Below, in pieces: positions 4,690 through 42,942 of a DNA stretch of 42,942 bases. Both the position numbers and the translations under genes were made by a program. The DNA is taken from IMG/VR virus record IMGVR_UViG_3300027733_000088, positions 1 through 42,942 of that record. The stretch is one strand, 5' to 3'. The notes beneath the pieces are model-generated. The model saw only the letters and a program-made list of their open reading frames with translations, searched no databases and was not told the DNA's origin. Position 1 is the first letter of the stretch, and every line of letters starts with the position of its first letter. Source of the DNA: a virus.

Positions 4690-4875
4690 ATGATAATCGT
4701 AAACATTAAGAGTGGGGACAACATTGAAAGAGCTCTAAAAACTCTTAAGTCCAAAGTAATTAAAACAAAACAAAATCAAAAACTAAACGAGAGAAAGGAA
4801 TATACAAAAAAATCTGTGGTCAGAAGAGCACAGATTTTAAAGGCAAAATATATTCAAAGTAAAAAAAATAATTAA
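4690..4875 (+). CDS. rpsU: Ribosomal protein bS21 (phage-encoded)
   Basis: 61 residues, full length for bS21. The N-terminal strand 'MIIVNIKSGDNIERALKTLK' and the later 'KKSVVRRAQILKAKYIQS' follow the Bacteroidota bS21 pattern ('P.KEGENI.RALKR.K..', 'F.KPSVVRRAEI.KA.YIQ'). bS21 sits on the 30S platform beside the anti-Shine-Dalgarno end of 16S rRNA; in Flavobacteriia it is known to help hide that sequence. A phage copy could replace the host protein and retune initiation toward phage mRNAs. It is the only plus-strand gene inside the minus-strand head block, and its stop overlaps the convergent stop of the next gene. Basic, no added domains. Confidence 0.93.
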   Translation: MIIVNIKSGDNIERALKTLKSKVIKTKQNQKLNERKEYTKKSVVRRAQILKAKYIQSKKNN

Positions 4876-16026: not shown

Positions 16027-16407
16027 TTACTTTTTCAAGTTTTTGATTTGGTCTCTAAGTTCAATAGATTTTTCAAACTCTTGGTTTTCAATCGACTTCT
16101 TTAATTCCAATTCAAGTTTCTCAATAGACTTTTGATTTTTCTCAAAGGTTTTGATTTGGTCTCTAAGTTTAACCGCAGATTCAAAATCTTCATTCTCAAT
16201 TGCTATGTCAAGTTGAGACTTTAAAGACTGTAATCCTCCCGTTTCTTTAGGTGAGTCACCTCCTCTATAATAAGTTGTTACTTTTATCGTACCGTCATCA
16301 GATACTCTACTTTGTGATTTCCATTCCCCTTGGGTTAAATCAAAATGAGAGAACATTTCATCGAATGCTCTAAAGATGTCATTGTAGTTTCTTCTGTTTC
16401 CAAACAT
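16027..16407 (-). CDS. Double UVR-motif protein, possible ClpC adaptor
   Basis: 126 residues from the ATG at 16407 (MFGNRRNYNDIFRAF). Two UVR motifs are clear: residues about 62-88 ('LKSQLDIAIENEDFESAVKLRDQI') and 98-126 ('LELELKKSIENQEFEKSIELRDQI'). They are also similar at the DNA level, so the second copy arose by duplication. UVR motifs mediate UvrB-UvrC contact and occur in McsA, an adaptor and activator of ClpC. There are no McsA zinc-finger cysteines. The gene is divergent from the ClpC-like gene across a 172-nt shared control region, so a ClpC-adaptor role is the favoured inference. Confidence 0.8.
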   Translation of the reverse strand: MFGNRRNYNDIFRAFDEMFSHFDLTQGEWKSQSRVSDDGTIKVTTYYRGGDSPKETGGLQSLKSQLDIAIENEDFESAVKLRDQIKTFEKNQKSIEKLELELKKSIENQEFEKSIELRDQIKNLKK

Positions 16408-16410
16408 AAT

Positions 16411-16445
16411 TTTGTTTTTTAATTCAATTTTATTTATTACCTTTG
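16411..16445 (+). promoter_or_regulatory. Candidate Bacteroidota-type promoter for the clpC-like gene
   Basis: TTTG (16411-16414), a 23-nt spacer and TACCTTTG (16438-16445). This would give a leader of about 130 nt before the ATG at 16580. Confidence 0.5.
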
Positions 16446-16522
16446 TGGTATTCAAATAATATACCAACTGAATCTTTATGTCAAGATGTCAGGTAAAATA
16501 ATTATAACCTGACAATTTGTCA
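16446..16522. promoter_or_regulatory. Three inverted repeats in the clpC leader
   Basis: TGGTAT/ATACCA (16446-16466), GTCAGGT/ACCTGAC (16488-16513) and TGACAA/TTGTCA (16510-16522) lie directly downstream of the candidate promoter. The last two overlap and are mutually exclusive. They could be operators or a structured leader. Confidence 0.55.
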
Positions 16523-16579: not shown

Positions 16580-18592
16580 ATGAACGACTTAATGGACGAC
16601 GACGACAAAATGATGAGTAAGAAACAAAAGCAGTCTGATAGCAGTACTCCTGTTTTAGACAACTTTAGTCGAGACTTAAATAAACTTGCAGAAGAAGGTA
16701 AGTTAGACCCTGTTATTGGTCGTGACCGAGAGATTTTGAGAATTGCTCAAATTTTATCTCGTAGAAAGAAAAACAATCCAATTATTCTTGGAGAACCTGG
16801 TTGTGGTAAGACCGCGATTGTTGAAGGTTTGGCCATGAAGATTGTTAGTGGTGAATGTCCTCGTAATTTAGTGGACAAAAGATTAGTCAATCTTGATTTA
16901 ACTTCTGTTGTTGCTGGTACCAAATACCGTGGACAATTTGAAGAAAGAATGAAGGTTATTATTGAAGAACTTACTGCGAATCCACATATCATTGTGTTTA
17001 TTGATGAGGTTCATACTTTAGTAGGTTCAGGTAACTCTTCAGGTTCTATGGATGGTTCCAACATCTTTAAACCAGCATTATCTCGTGGTGAATTACAAAT
17101 CATCGGAGCAACAACTCTTGATGAGTTCCGTAAGAACATCGAGAAGGATGGGGCGTTGGAACGTAGATTCCAAAAAGTAGTTGTGGATGCGTCAACAGTT
17201 GACGAGACAATTCAAATCCTTAAGAATGTTCGTGATAAGTATGAGTCTTATCACAAGGTGACTTACAGTGATGAAGTAATTGAGGCTTGTGTTAAATTGG
17301 CTGACCGTTACATCACAGACCGTGAGTTTCCTGATAAAGCGTTTGATATCTTGGATGAAGTAGGAGCTCGTATGCAAACCGAACTTAAAGTTCCCGAGTC
17401 AATCGAAACTTTAAAGAAGGCGGCGTCTGACATCAGACAACAAAAGATTGACGTGGTTAAAAAACAAAACTACGAACAAGCTGCTCAGTTGAGAGACAAG
17501 GAGAAAAAAGTGTTGGATAAATTAGAAGCTGAAAAACGTAAGTTTGAGGAGTCTATGGCACAGAACAAACAAACTATCCTATTGGAGAATGTTTATGATG
17601 TAGTTTCCAACATGGTTAAAATCCCTGTTAGTAAAATGAGTGTTGATGACACTAAAGCTTTATTGAACTTGGACAAAGAGTTAATCGGTAAAGTAATTGG
17701 TCAGGACGCAGCAGTTGTTAAGATTGCAAAATCTATCAAGAGAAACCGTTTGGGTATTAAGGACCCGAACCGTCCGATTGGTTCTTTTGTATTCTTAGGT
17801 TCAACAGGTGTAGGTAAAACTCACTTGGCAAAACAGTTGGCAAAAGAAATGTTTGGTACCGAAGATTCACTTATCCGTGTGGACATGTCTGAGTACCAAG
17901 AGAAACACACTGTATCTAAATTGGTTGGAGCGCCTCCAGGTTATGTTGGATATGAAGAAGGTGGTTTATTGACTGAGAAAGTTAAAAACAAACCATATTC
18001 AGTTATCTTGTTTGACGAGGTAGAGAAGGCTCACAAAGACGTGTTTACTATCTTACTTCAAATCTTAGATGACGGTCATGTTACAGATAGTTTAGGTAGA
18101 AAGATTAACTTCAAGAATACCTTAATCATCTTAACTTCAAACTTAGGTGTGAAGAAGTTACAAGACTTTGGTACAGGTATCGGTTTCTCTAACAGTCCTT
18201 ACGCTAATGAGGAGGCCAAAAAAGAAGTGTTAATGAAAGAGATGAAGAAATTCTTCTCACCTGAATTTATCAACCGTATCGATGATACGATTGTATTCAA
18301 CTCATTAACTCCTGAGGACATCAAGAAAATCACTGTGATTGAATTGGCGAAATTAGGTAAACGTCTTAAGGACATGAAGTACACTCTAAACTTCGATGAT
18401 ACTTTAGTTGATTATTTGGCTAAGATTGGATTCGACGAGATGTACGGAGCAAGACCACTTAAGAGAGCAATCCAAGACAAAGTTGAGGATTTGTTATCTG
18501 AAGAAGTTCTAACAGGTAAGATGATTGAGGGTAAAACCTACACCATCAAAGTTGAGAACGACGAGGTTAAAGTTCAGAAAAAAGGACGATAA
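16580..18592 (+). CDS. clpC: ClpC-like AAA+ unfoldase (Hsp100), lacking the N-domain
   Basis: 670 residues with two AAA+ modules. D1 has Walker A GEPGCGKT (71-78), pore-loop '[10 protein letters not shown]' (115-124) and Walker B 'VFIDEV' (139-144). The middle region has a UVR-like segment '[21 protein letters not shown]' (about 298-318), as in ClpC. D2 has GSTGVGKT (407-414), pore-loop 'PPGYVGY' (453-459) and '[10 protein letters not shown]'. 'GIGF' (533-536) fits the [LIV]-G-[FL] loop that docks ClpP, which ClpB lacks. The usual ~150-residue N-domain is missing and replaced by a short Asp-rich leader. It could feed host ClpP or act as a disaggregase. Confidence 0.93.
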
Positions 18593-21300: not shown

Positions 21301-21331
21301 TAAAGTTTTTTTAAATAAATATCTTTTCTGT

Positions 21332-21361
21332 TTGGATTATACATATTTATCCTTATCTTTG
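21332..21361 (+). promoter_or_regulatory. Promoter of the tmRNA gene
   Basis: TTG (21332-21334), a 19-nt spacer and TATCTTTG (21354-21361), about 40 nt upstream of the mature tmRNA 5' end. Confidence 0.75.
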
Positions 21362-21402
21362 TACTCACAAACAACGAGATATGTTTGTTTCTTTGAAATT
21401 AT

Positions 21403-21799
21403 GGGGATGACACGGTAATTGATTGGTATGCAATTGCTTAGGTGGCACGTCGGAGCTGAATTAACTCCGTTATCAACTGGTTTAAAACAATTAAATGGCA
21501 ATACTTTTGCTAAGCTTTCTGCTTTAGGTTTAACTAGAGAAGAAGCTGTTGTTACTATCTAAGATAGGGAACAATACTCGGGTCGGTTAGGACATACACC
21601 TAGGAACAGAAGTCCAACATACGGGTGACAGGTTAGAGCTCGTTTAAAATAATTCTAAGACCAAGTTGTTTGCAGGTAGGGTTCTCACATACATCAAACC
21701 TGATATTTTGGAACATTGAGAACCAATGTTATACTAAGCGTGTAGTCACTTACGTTATTCGTAAACAAGACGAGGGTTCGAATCCCTCCATCTCCACCA
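21403..21799 (+). ncRNA. ssrA: Transfer-messenger RNA (tmRNA), phage-encoded
   Basis: 397 nt. The 5' end GGGGATG pairs with CATCTCC at the 3' end, including the G3:U pair needed for alanine charging, and ACCA is encoded. The 5' sequence ('GGGGATGACACGG', 'TTGATTGG') and the 3' sequence ('ACTAAGCGTGTAG', then a T-arm with GGTTCGAATCC) match tmRNA consensus. The best tag frame runs from GGC (21497) to TAA (21560-21562): 21 codons, reading GNTFAKLSALGLTREEAVVT plus a final I. It does not end in the usual LAA. tmRNA with SmpB frees stalled ribosomes. Promoter and perfect terminator flank it; no smpB gene is seen in the window. Confidence 0.93.
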
Positions 21800-21802
21800 A
21801 AT

Positions 21803-21828
21803 AAAGGGACTCAATTGAGTCCCTTTTT
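21803..21828 (+). terminator. Terminator of the tmRNA gene
   Basis: A perfect 24-nt palindrome (AAAGGGACTCAA/TTGAGTCCCTTT) followed by extra Ts. Confidence 0.9.
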
Positions 21829-21839
21829 ATAGTTTATTT

Positions 21840-40192: not shown

Positions 40193-41860
40193 ATGAGGGT
40201 ATTAGGATTTTCAGTTGGGCATGACAAAGGTGCTGTCATTATTGAGAACGGTAAAGTTGTTGTTGGTATAACCCAGGAAAGACTTACCAGAATAAAACAT
40301 GACGGTGCATATCAAGGTGGTATAATACCATTTGAATCAATTAATTATTGTTTAAATGCTCTTAGTATTACACATAAAGACATTGATTATTATGTGTATA
40401 GTACAACCGAGATTGAAGATACCGTAGGTACTCAATTCTTTTCAAAATACAGTAACCTTAAGAGAGAAATATTATACTTTATTCCTCATCATTTGGCTCA
40501 CGCATATTCGGCATTCTTTAGCTCAGGTCTTGAAGAATCTGCCGTTGTTGTTGCGGATGCATCGGGAAGTATCTTAAATTTTAAAAACAAATTAAATCTT
40601 TGGTACGAAAAAAATAAAGATACTTTAGACACCAATGAAGATTGGACAGAGGGAATTTCAATTTATAATTTTAATAAAAAAGAATATTCCGAAGTTTATA
40701 AAAAATGGATAAAATATCCCGTTCCTATTAATACAAATGAAGGAGTTTCGTTAGGTACCATGTACTCGACAGGTTCTCTTCAATTAATTTACGAACCAAA
40801 CACCCAAACATGGCCCGCAGGAAAATTAATGGGGTTGGCATCTTATGCCAATCAAGATATTGTAAATGAGGCTCCATTATTTGTTGAGGAAAAAGAAGAC
40901 GATATTTACATTTCTAACAATAATATATACCCGAAAGTTTCTTGGAAATCTGATTTTTATTCGAGAGCTTGTGTTGCAGGAATTTACCAACGAGAACAAG
41001 AAAGAGCGTCTTTAATATTGGCAAATATGGCCAAGAAATTTACAGATTCTAAAAACATATGTGTTGTTGGTGGGTCTTTCTTAAACTGTAATTCAAATGA
41101 AAAAATTTTGAATTCAGGTCTTTTTGAAAACTGTTACTTTTTACCTCCAAGTGATGATAGCGGAATACCGTTAGGTTGTGCTTGGTTTGCATATCAAAAA
41201 TTAATTGATATTGAAGAAACCAATATGTTAAGTCCTTACTTTGGTAAGACTTATTCTAAAAATGAAATTTTTGAGGCTCTTAACGAACATCCTTCACTGG
41301 TTTATACTGAATATGAAAATTTTGACGATTTAGTTGAAAACGTGAGTTTTTCATTAAGTCAAAATAGAGTTATTGGTTGGTTCCAAGGAGGGTCAGAAAT
41401 TGGTCCAAGGGCGTTAGGAAATCGTTCAATTATTGCTTCCCCAATTAACTCGTGGATGACAGGCCATATTAATAGTGATATTAAACACAGAGAATGGTAT
41501 CGACCTTTCGCTCCTGCAGTTTTATTTGAGTATCAAGGAGATGTATTTGAAAGTTCTGTCTATTCCCCATACATGTTGGTAACAACAACTGTTAAAGAAG
41601 AGTGGAGAAATAAAGTACCTGCAATTACCCACATTGATAATTCGTCAAGACATCAATCTGTTACGGTAGAAAATAATCCAAGGTTCCATTCGTTAATTTC
41701 TAAATTTTATGAAAAAACAGGAGTTCCTGTTTTATTAAATACAAGTTTTAACGGACCTCATGAACCTATTGTTGAAACCCCGATGAACGCTATTGAAACT
41801 TTTTTACGTAACAACTTAGATATCTTAGTACTCAATAATATTGTAATCACAAAAGGTTAA
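40193..41860 (+). CDS. Carbamoyltransferase, NodU/CmcH type (first of pair)
   Basis: 555 residues. The N-terminal Kae1-like domain has 'GFSVGHDKGAVIIENG' (H10-D11), 'ERLTRIKHDG' and the metal motif 'PHHLAHAYSAFF' (98-109) with D122 in 'VVVADASGS'. The C-terminal domain has the hallmark 'GGSEIGPRALGNRSIIA' and 'HREWYRPFAPAVL'. These enzymes use carbamoyl phosphate and ATP to carbamoylate hydroxyl groups. Related phage enzymes have been linked to carbamoylated hydroxymethylcytosine in DNA, so DNA hypermodification is the leading guess here. Confidence 0.93.
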   Translation: MRVLGFSVGHDKGAVIIENGKVVVGITQERLTRIKHDGAYQGGIIPFESINYCLNALSITHKDIDYYVYSTTEIEDTVGTQFFSKYSNLKREILYFIPHHLAHAYSAFFSSGLEESAVVVADASGSILNFKNKLNLWYEKNKDTLDTNEDWTEGISIYNFNKKEYSEVYKKWIKYPVPINTNEGVSLGTMYSTGSLQLIYEPNTQTWPAGKLMGLASYANQDIVNEAPLFVEEKEDDIYISNNNIYPKVSWKSDFYSRACVAGIYQREQERASLILANMAKKFTDSKNICVVGGSFLNCNSNEKILNSGLFENCYFLPPSDDSGIPLGCAWFAYQKLIDIEETNMLSPYFGKTYSKNEIFEALNEHPSLVYTEYENFDDLVENVSFSLSQNRVIGWFQGGSEIGPRALGNRSIIASPINSWMTGHINSDIKHREWYRPFAPAVLFEYQGDVFESSVYSPYMLVTTTVKEEWRNKVPAITHIDNSSRHQSVTVENNPRFHSLISKFYEKTGVPVLLNTSFNGPHEPIVETPMNAIETFLRNNLDILVLNNIVITKG

Positions 41861-41861
41861 C

Positions 41862-42942
41862 ATGAGTTCAATTTATGGATGTTTTACTGGGTCTCACAGT
41901 GCTACCGTTGCGTTAATGGTCGATGGAAAAGTTGTATCCGTAATCGAAGAGGAGAGAATTACCCGAATAAAGGCAGGAGATAATTACGATGTAAATGCAG
42001 ATTTATCCTTAGACTCAATTCAAAAATACACAGGGTTAAAAATGACTGACGCAGATTATAATGTGTTCGCATTACCAACTCCTGATGGATTTGCTCGAAA
42101 AGTAACCAATAATCGTTACGAAACTATAAGTCATCACACCGCACACGCCTACGGAGCTTATTATACAAGTGGTATGGAAGGTAAAACCATGACAATCACT
42201 TATGATGGTGGAGGTGACACCAGTGTTATGAAAATATTTCTATGTGATGAGGGTAAAATGACCCTCTTACATAGTTTTCCAATGTCTTCATATGGTAGTC
42301 TTTCGCATGTTTGGGGTTTCAGTACATCTTCAATTATGGGTTATGATATTTTTGGTGTGGGAGTTTGGAAGATGTGTAAGGATGAGGGTAAACTTATGGG
42401 TATGGCTGCGAATGGTCATTATGATGAAAGAATTTACAATGAACTGAAATCTTGTATCAACTACGAAAACTTAAGATTTTATCCATCATCCAATAATGCT
42501 AAAACTCAATTTGTTGTGGACATGATGAAACTCAAAGGTTTATTGGATACGCCACGCCAAAGAGAAATCTTTTCTTTTAACTTACAAAAATTAACTGAAG
42601 ATTTATTTTTAAATTTTTTGGATGATTTACATAAATTATATCCTGATTATAAAAACTTATGTTTTGCTGGTGGGTTATTTGCGAATGTTAAATTAAATCA
42701 AAAGATTAATGAATTAGAATGGTTAGATGAAATGTATGTTTACCCTCCTATGGGAGATGAAGGACTTGCTTTAGGTTCTTGTATATACAAATCGGTTGAA
42801 CTTGGAGAGATAACTAAACCGTTTAAGTTTGATAATATGTTTTTTGGGATGAGATATTCTAATGATGACATATTTGAAACTTCTAAGAGATTTAAATTGG
42901 CTAGGGAACCTTATGTACCATCTAAAATTGCAGAAGAAATTA
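41862..42942 (+). CDS. Carbamoyltransferase, NodU/CmcH type (second of pair, incomplete)
   Basis: Starts at the ATG 2 nt after the previous gene's stop and is open to the window edge, so only the first 360 residues are seen. 'CFTGSHSATVALMVDGKVVS', 'EEERITRIKAGDNYD', 'ISHHTAHAYGAYYTSGM' (metal motif), 'ITYDGGGDTSV', and 'LCFAGGLFANVKLNQKI' fit the Kae1-like domain and its follow-on. It is clearly different from the first copy, so this is an old duplication or a heteromeric pair, not a recent repeat. Its C-terminal 'GPRALG' domain is outside the window. Confidence 0.92.
   Translation, partial: MSSIYGCFTGSHSATVALMVDGKVVSVIEEERITRIKAGDNYDVNADLSLDSIQKYTGLKMTDADYNVFALPTPDGFARKVTNNRYETISHHTAHAYGAYYTSGMEGKTMTITYDGGGDTSVMKIFLCDEGKMTLLHSFPMSSYGSLSHVWGFSTSSIMGYDIFGVGVWKMCKDEGKLMGMAANGHYDERIYNELKSCINYENLRFYPSSNNAKTQFVVDMMKLKGLLDTPRQREIFSFNLQKLTEDLFLNFLDDLHKLYPDYKNLCFAGGLFANVKLNQKINELEWLDEMYVYPPMGDEGLALGSCIYKSVELGEITKPFKFDNMFFGMRYSNDDIFETSKRFKLAREPYVPSKIAEEI

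Follow-up and report, generated by a model that had tools for sequence, protein, structure and literature searches.

The analysed stretch of DNA, referred to as the window throughout, comprises the 42,942 bases of an IMG/VR virus record that is probably a fragment of a larger genome, and carries a complete one-piece tmRNA gene. The Infernal search with the tmRNA model RF00023, proposed as a check together with the original prediction, was carried out with cmscan on the window and gave a match of 86.2 bits (gathering cutoff 47, E-value 3.1e-32). This match covers the model from position 1 to 374 of 374 without truncation and has the same ends as the predicted gene. In contrast, the tmRNA is absent from the ARAGORN output for the whole window, which contains only tRNAs. 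The features of the gene and its surroundings are compiled in Table 1.

Table 1. Features of the tmRNA locus and of associated genes in the window.
Feature	Position	Strand	Basis or remark
One-piece tmRNA gene (ssrA), mature form	21403..21799	+	RF00023 full length; covarying relatives
Acceptor stem P1, 5' strand GGGGATG	21403..21409	+	pairs with 21789-21795, 7/7 pairs
Acceptor 3' strand CATCTCC, discriminator A, encoded CCA	21789..21799	+	ACCA = 21796-21799
T-arm GAGGG-TTCGAAT-CCCTC	21772..21788	+	5/5 pairs; both-side changes among relatives
Pseudoknot PK1	21451..21484	+	compensatory variants in relatives
Bacteroidetes-type promoter TTTG-N19-TATCTTTG	21331..21361	+	conserved in clade
Second promoter match TTTG-N18-TATGTTTG	21358..21387	+	
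Intrinsic terminator	21803..21829	+	hairpin 21803-21826 + T run
Tag frame GNTFAKLSALGLTREEAVVTI + stop TAA	21497..21562	+	conserved frame; same frame called by ARAGORN in relatives
Invariant A, 4 bases before resume codon	21493	+	A in 36/36 distinct sequences
ClpC-type AAA+ unfoldase without N domain	16580..18592	+	Pfam scan, alignments, structure relatives
UVR-motif protein, weakly McsA-like	16027..16467	-	43.9 bits, below cutoff of 210
23 tRNA genes, all 20 amino acids	28556..37830	-	ARAGORN, cmscan
bS21 (matched part)	4699..4851	+	PF01165, 38.2 bits; strand opposite head genes

The tRNA-like ends, the alanine identity pair and the encoded CCA that had been noticed in the sequence were all recovered. 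Both strands of the acceptor stem pair completely, with the G3-U70 wobble in place, and the tRNA-like domain contains the TTCGA of the T-loop as well. A CGGAG/CTCCG hairpin had also been described near the 5' end; its pairing was confirmed, but it is not a simple hairpin, because a second stem (TGAATTA, 21457-21463, with TGGTTTA, 21478-21484) interlocks with it. It thus forms stem 1 (21451-21455 with 21465-21469) of the pseudoknot PK1, located upstream of the resume codon. On folding, neither the acceptor nor the pseudoknot pairs were found disrupted, and both covary in relatives. The PK2-PK4 region aligned weakly in cmscan, and RNAalifold recovered only one helix of 4 pairs there.

Relatives were collected through a terminase search of IMG/VR, which detected at least 599 related stretches, the best 80 of which were kept. 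Among 32 longer terminase-related records, 14 gave an RF00023 match above cutoff, and those lacking one are, as far as this could be checked, truncated or lack coverage of the locus: G002 stops 1.6 kb past ClpC and G024, which may be cut before the tmRNA, 3.5 kb past it, and the others are cut within the ClpC gene or have none. All nine records in which the ClpC gene is whole and followed by sufficient sequence contain the tmRNA. A pattern search added 38 further contigs, and all loci together yielded 36 distinct tmRNA sequences. The description of phage tmRNAs as rare has to be qualified: a 2021 survey gives 402 of 18,146 phage genomes (PMC9004378), and in this clade every record that clearly covers the locus has the gene. 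A nucleotide search with the locus against 50,697 phage records gave no match, and a pattern search of 84,980 genomes of bacteria and archaea returned only one Ralstonia and one Chthoniobacterales contig and none from Bacteroidota.

P1 is fully paired in all 36 distinct sequences, with G-U at the third pair in every case. Since the locus finder demanded at least 6 of 7 P1 pairs and at least 4 of 5 T-arm pairs, complete pairing of these stems is partly an artefact of selection; this requirement does not account for the both-side changes or for the fixed G-U. Pairs 4-7 of P1 and the T-arm pairs vary among G-C, A-U, C-G and U-A, and for stem 1 of PK1 at least six compensatory forms were seen (CGGAG/CTCCG, AGGAG/CTCCT, CGGAA/TTCCG, GGAGA/TCTCC, AGTGA/TCACT and AGTCA/TGACT). 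RNAalifold detected both-side changes in 12 of 24 pairs (25 sequences). The T-loop, which normally has 7 bases in tRNAs, has 6 (TTCGAA) in the relatives L238, L258, L090 and L098, with P1 and the T-stem still paired. Furthermore, a short second piece resembling a tmRNA 3' end (GAGTCCC..CACCTCCA) lies downstream of the gene in L241, L250, L254 and L277 and is reminiscent of a replaced or duplicated 3' end.

The gene had been predicted to possess its own promoter and terminator, and both are borne out in the clade. TTTG-N18..21-TANNTTTG is the pattern of the Bacteroidetes primary sigma factor, and such a promoter was found in 29 of the 35 distinct upstream regions, compared to 0.2 in shuffles. 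No sigma-70 site was found upstream of the window tmRNA. A terminator equivalent to that of the window is present in 32 of 35 distinct regions (5.2 in shuffles). In L117 and L193, a common unrelated segment (CTGACCTTAAGCATCTGAC...) stands in place of the conserved promoter.

The predicted tag frame is likewise present; it starts at the resume codon GGC and encodes 21 residues up to the stop at 21560-21562. The invariant A in front of it is the equivalent of A86 of E. coli, which sets the frame (PMC2481249). All 23 distinct tag-coding sequences of the clade have 21-22 codons, examples among relatives being GNTFAKMAAIGLIAEEATVVA, GNVLDKLSAVGFIRTEEVAVA and GNVLNKMALVGLVRQDELVNVA. Across the three codon positions, their entropy is 0.71, 0.53 and 1.11. 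The pN/pS ratio amounts to 0.59 in this frame versus 0.95 and 1.17 in the two alternatives, and is confounded by RNA structure and relatedness; the alternative frames run into stops at varying places. From these patterns we infer that the tag is under amino-acid constraint. ARAGORN calls the long frame in L120, L148, L152 and L174 and gives just the last eight tag residues in L088, L089, L093 and L094.

Tags of Bacteroidetes hosts are generally expected to be short and to end in ALAA. The window tag ends in -VVTI, as do those of several contigs of its subgroup, and does not match the canonical ssrA degron end (ALAA or a close variant, VAA/MAA). Most other clade tags end in -VA, -GA or -AA and one in -VAA, and an ALAA end occurs in none. 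Elsewhere in the window, a search for tag-like peptides gave just short chance-like matches. In other viral contigs (L142, L157, L175, L149 and L222), tags of 23-28 residues end in AVAA, AMAA, LVAA or ALAA.

Two features go beyond the original prediction, namely the conserved tag of 21-22 residues without ALAA and a linked ClpC-type unfoldase with ClpP. The unfoldase gene lies 2.8 kb upstream of the tmRNA in the window and 2-5 kb upstream in relatives. Its product consists of two AAA modules with a short UVR-type middle domain and has pore loops KYRG and GYVG as well as a ClpP-docking IGF within GIGF at residues 533-536; [ILV]GF is found in all 35 distinct ClpC relatives, in which the pore loops are kept. 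The best solved relatives are ClpC structures. Pfam gave no Clp_N match in the window unfoldase, and alignments to full-length ClpC start near ClpC residue 147. ClpC-family unfoldases usually need adaptors (PMC8138137), and the UVR-motif protein encoded by the adjoining gene on the opposite strand is a possible candidate for such a role. ClpP is encoded in 15 of 19 longer related records, and its Ser (AASMGS), His (MLHQ) and Asp (TRD or SRD) motifs are visible in the sequences inspected. The closest relatives have ClpP about 22 kb downstream of the tmRNA, the distance being 22.5 kb in G010 (ClpC about 98% identical); from this spacing, the ClpP gene of the window phage is expected at about 44.3 kb, just past the window end. 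In agreement, the last partial gene of the window matches a G010 gene located two positions ahead of ClpP. The right end of the window also holds two consecutive carbamoyltransferase-like genes (40193-41860 and 41862-42941, judged from their translations).

SmpB was detected above the NCBIfam cutoff in 9 of 19 related records, with a distance of about 0.9-1.1 kb to the tmRNA wherever this was measured; it was not found in the window fragment, in G001, G010 and G022 or in the 321 kb record G021. An identical tag, GNILNKMALVGLVRQDELVNVA, accompanies ClpC genes that share about 86% and about 69% identity with that of the window. Tag and unfoldase are therefore not closely fitted to one another, which argues against their co-evolution as a tight pair.

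The bS21 gene (above the Pfam cutoff) and the full tRNA set described alongside the tmRNA were both confirmed. In the window, bS21 runs antisense among the terminase, portal and prohead protease genes, an arrangement known from the bS21 phages (Chen 2022, PMC9723584), which are described with genomes of 293-331 kb, a Clp protease and 5-25 tRNAs, called with tRNAscan-SE. Because of this arrangement and the size of its relatives (about 310-320 kb), the window phage is placed in, or beside, the group of bS21 phages of freshwater Bacteroidetes with genomes of about 300-330 kb. It differs from their published description in the tmRNA itself, since the main text of that study mentions neither tmRNA, ssrA nor SmpB.

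In comparison with bacterial one-piece tmRNAs, the window RNA shares the whole model, P1, P2, the T-arm, PK1, G3-U70 and the resume signal; it differs in the length and end of its tag and in escaping ARAGORN. Phage-borne tmRNAs, often together with many tRNAs, are described for the mycobacteriophages of the Bxz1 group, Bacillus phage G, Streptomyces BE phages, the OM43 phage Melnitz and the Maribacter phage Panino; that of Melnitz is two-piece and riboswitch-linked, and the portions of these accounts covered here mention no linked set of ClpC, ClpP and SmpB. Huge phages with tmRNA and SmpB are known as well (Al-Shayeb 2020, PMC7162821), and by the present reading long tags also occur in the huge phages LR756508, LR756504 and LR756501, the last below cutoff. 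In the huge phages L302, L303 and L312 (484, 636 and 735 kb), which have tmRNA hits, apparent tags comprise about 25-35 residues, and ARAGORN miscalls or misses the genes. Prevotella Lak phages also combine tmRNA with SmpB, but their tags appear to end in RMAA and their SmpB is only about 48% identical; L304 and L305 match the model at 54 and 48 bits, just above cutoff, with an apparent tag end FRMAA and an encoded SmpB. A long ssrA tag is read by Lon in Mesoplasma florum, which resembles the present case in its extended tag and, putatively, in a protease other than ClpXP. That system is bacterial and Lon-based, whereas here the receiving protease is only a candidate. Since phage tmRNAs and huge phages with tmRNA and SmpB are already known, and long tags also appear in other huge phages, the novelty lies not in the tmRNA itself; what is new is the clade-wide conserved in-frame tag of 21-22 residues without ALAA, together with the linked Clp set.

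Several other readings of the locus were weighed. If the tmRNA served only to free ribosomes, the tag would be no degron and its long form without ALAA could have evolved to escape host ClpXP. We consider this unlikely: the lack of ALAA throughout the clade and the -VVTI of the window's subgroup agree with it, but most clade tags have nonpolar ends that resemble known degron ends, amino-acid constraint acts on the tag and ClpC and ClpP are co-encoded. It is far less probable that the RNA acts as a decoy which occupies host SmpB, AlaRS or EF-Tu and so blocks host trans-translation. A suggested precedent is the mycobacteriophage DS6A, described as encoding little beyond the tRNA-like domain (PMC4131195); in the present clade, however, selection has maintained the mRNA half together with the resume signal and the tag frame, and about half of the records examined encode their own SmpB.

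Misreading of the tag frame was considered too, with the short GCA frame AILLLSFLL as the true tag. Its length looks usual, although in the window alone; in 23 of 36 sequences it runs for just 3 codons before a stop. The A at -4 indicates GGC instead, four relatives have the long frame called by ARAGORN, and the short frame was rejected as highly improbable. Least can be said for an integration scar or a relic of ssrA from a host. Elements often integrate in ssrA, and the second 3'-end-like piece in some relatives could recall such an event, but the gene is complete and has covarying stems, its own promoter and its own terminator in phages reported to be without detectable integrases (PMC9723584). 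Full-length conservation and covariation contradict this reading, and a pseudogene was rejected as well.

Comparative evidence establishes an intact tmRNA under selection, equipped with host-type expression signals and a long tag that is itself selected. We therefore regard it as quite probable that the locus encodes a functional, phage-owned one-piece tmRNA which would be expressed at infection, rescue ribosomes and add the long tag. The Bacteroidetes RNA polymerase would transcribe the gene during infection, and the RNA would be trimmed and charged with alanine, working with the alanyl-tRNA synthetase and EF-Tu of the host. SmpB, supplied by the host in the window's lineage and by the phage in sister lineages, would deliver it to ribosomes stalled on broken mRNA, where translation would resume at GGC and add alanine plus the encoded tag. 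Most likely, the tmRNA of the window thus acts with host SmpB, freeing ribosomes and adding a phage-specific tag, and the benefit would be a supply of free ribosomes while mRNA is being broken by host defence or phage nucleases. The takeover of ribosome rescue suggested originally is a reasonable reading in this respect, but it would need the host's SmpB, none having been found in the window or its nearest relatives.

Whether the tagged fragments would go to a Clp protease appears evenly balanced; the obvious candidates for receiving them would be the phage's own ClpP and ClpC-type unfoldase. Degradation by this pair is plausible, although the -VVTI end of the window tag is no classical degron end. 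More tentatively, the phages might possess a private tag-and-destroy line made up of their own tmRNA with its long tag, the ClpC-type unfoldase, ClpP and, in some lineages, SmpB, in which the phage protease and not host ClpXP would read the tagged proteins; we hold this to be possible, if somewhat doubtful.

A tmRNA selected throughout a clade of abundant lake phages is of interest in itself, as it goes unmentioned in the main text of PMC9723584 and as ARAGORN can miss such genes. Its presence fits reports, discussed in the same study, of Bacteroidetes blocking phages by stalled phage protein synthesis. With a long tag under constraint and Clp genes of the phage nearby, it becomes testable whether these phages, besides the rescue itself, redirect the rescued fragments; the phage may run its own line of ribosome rescue and clean-up.
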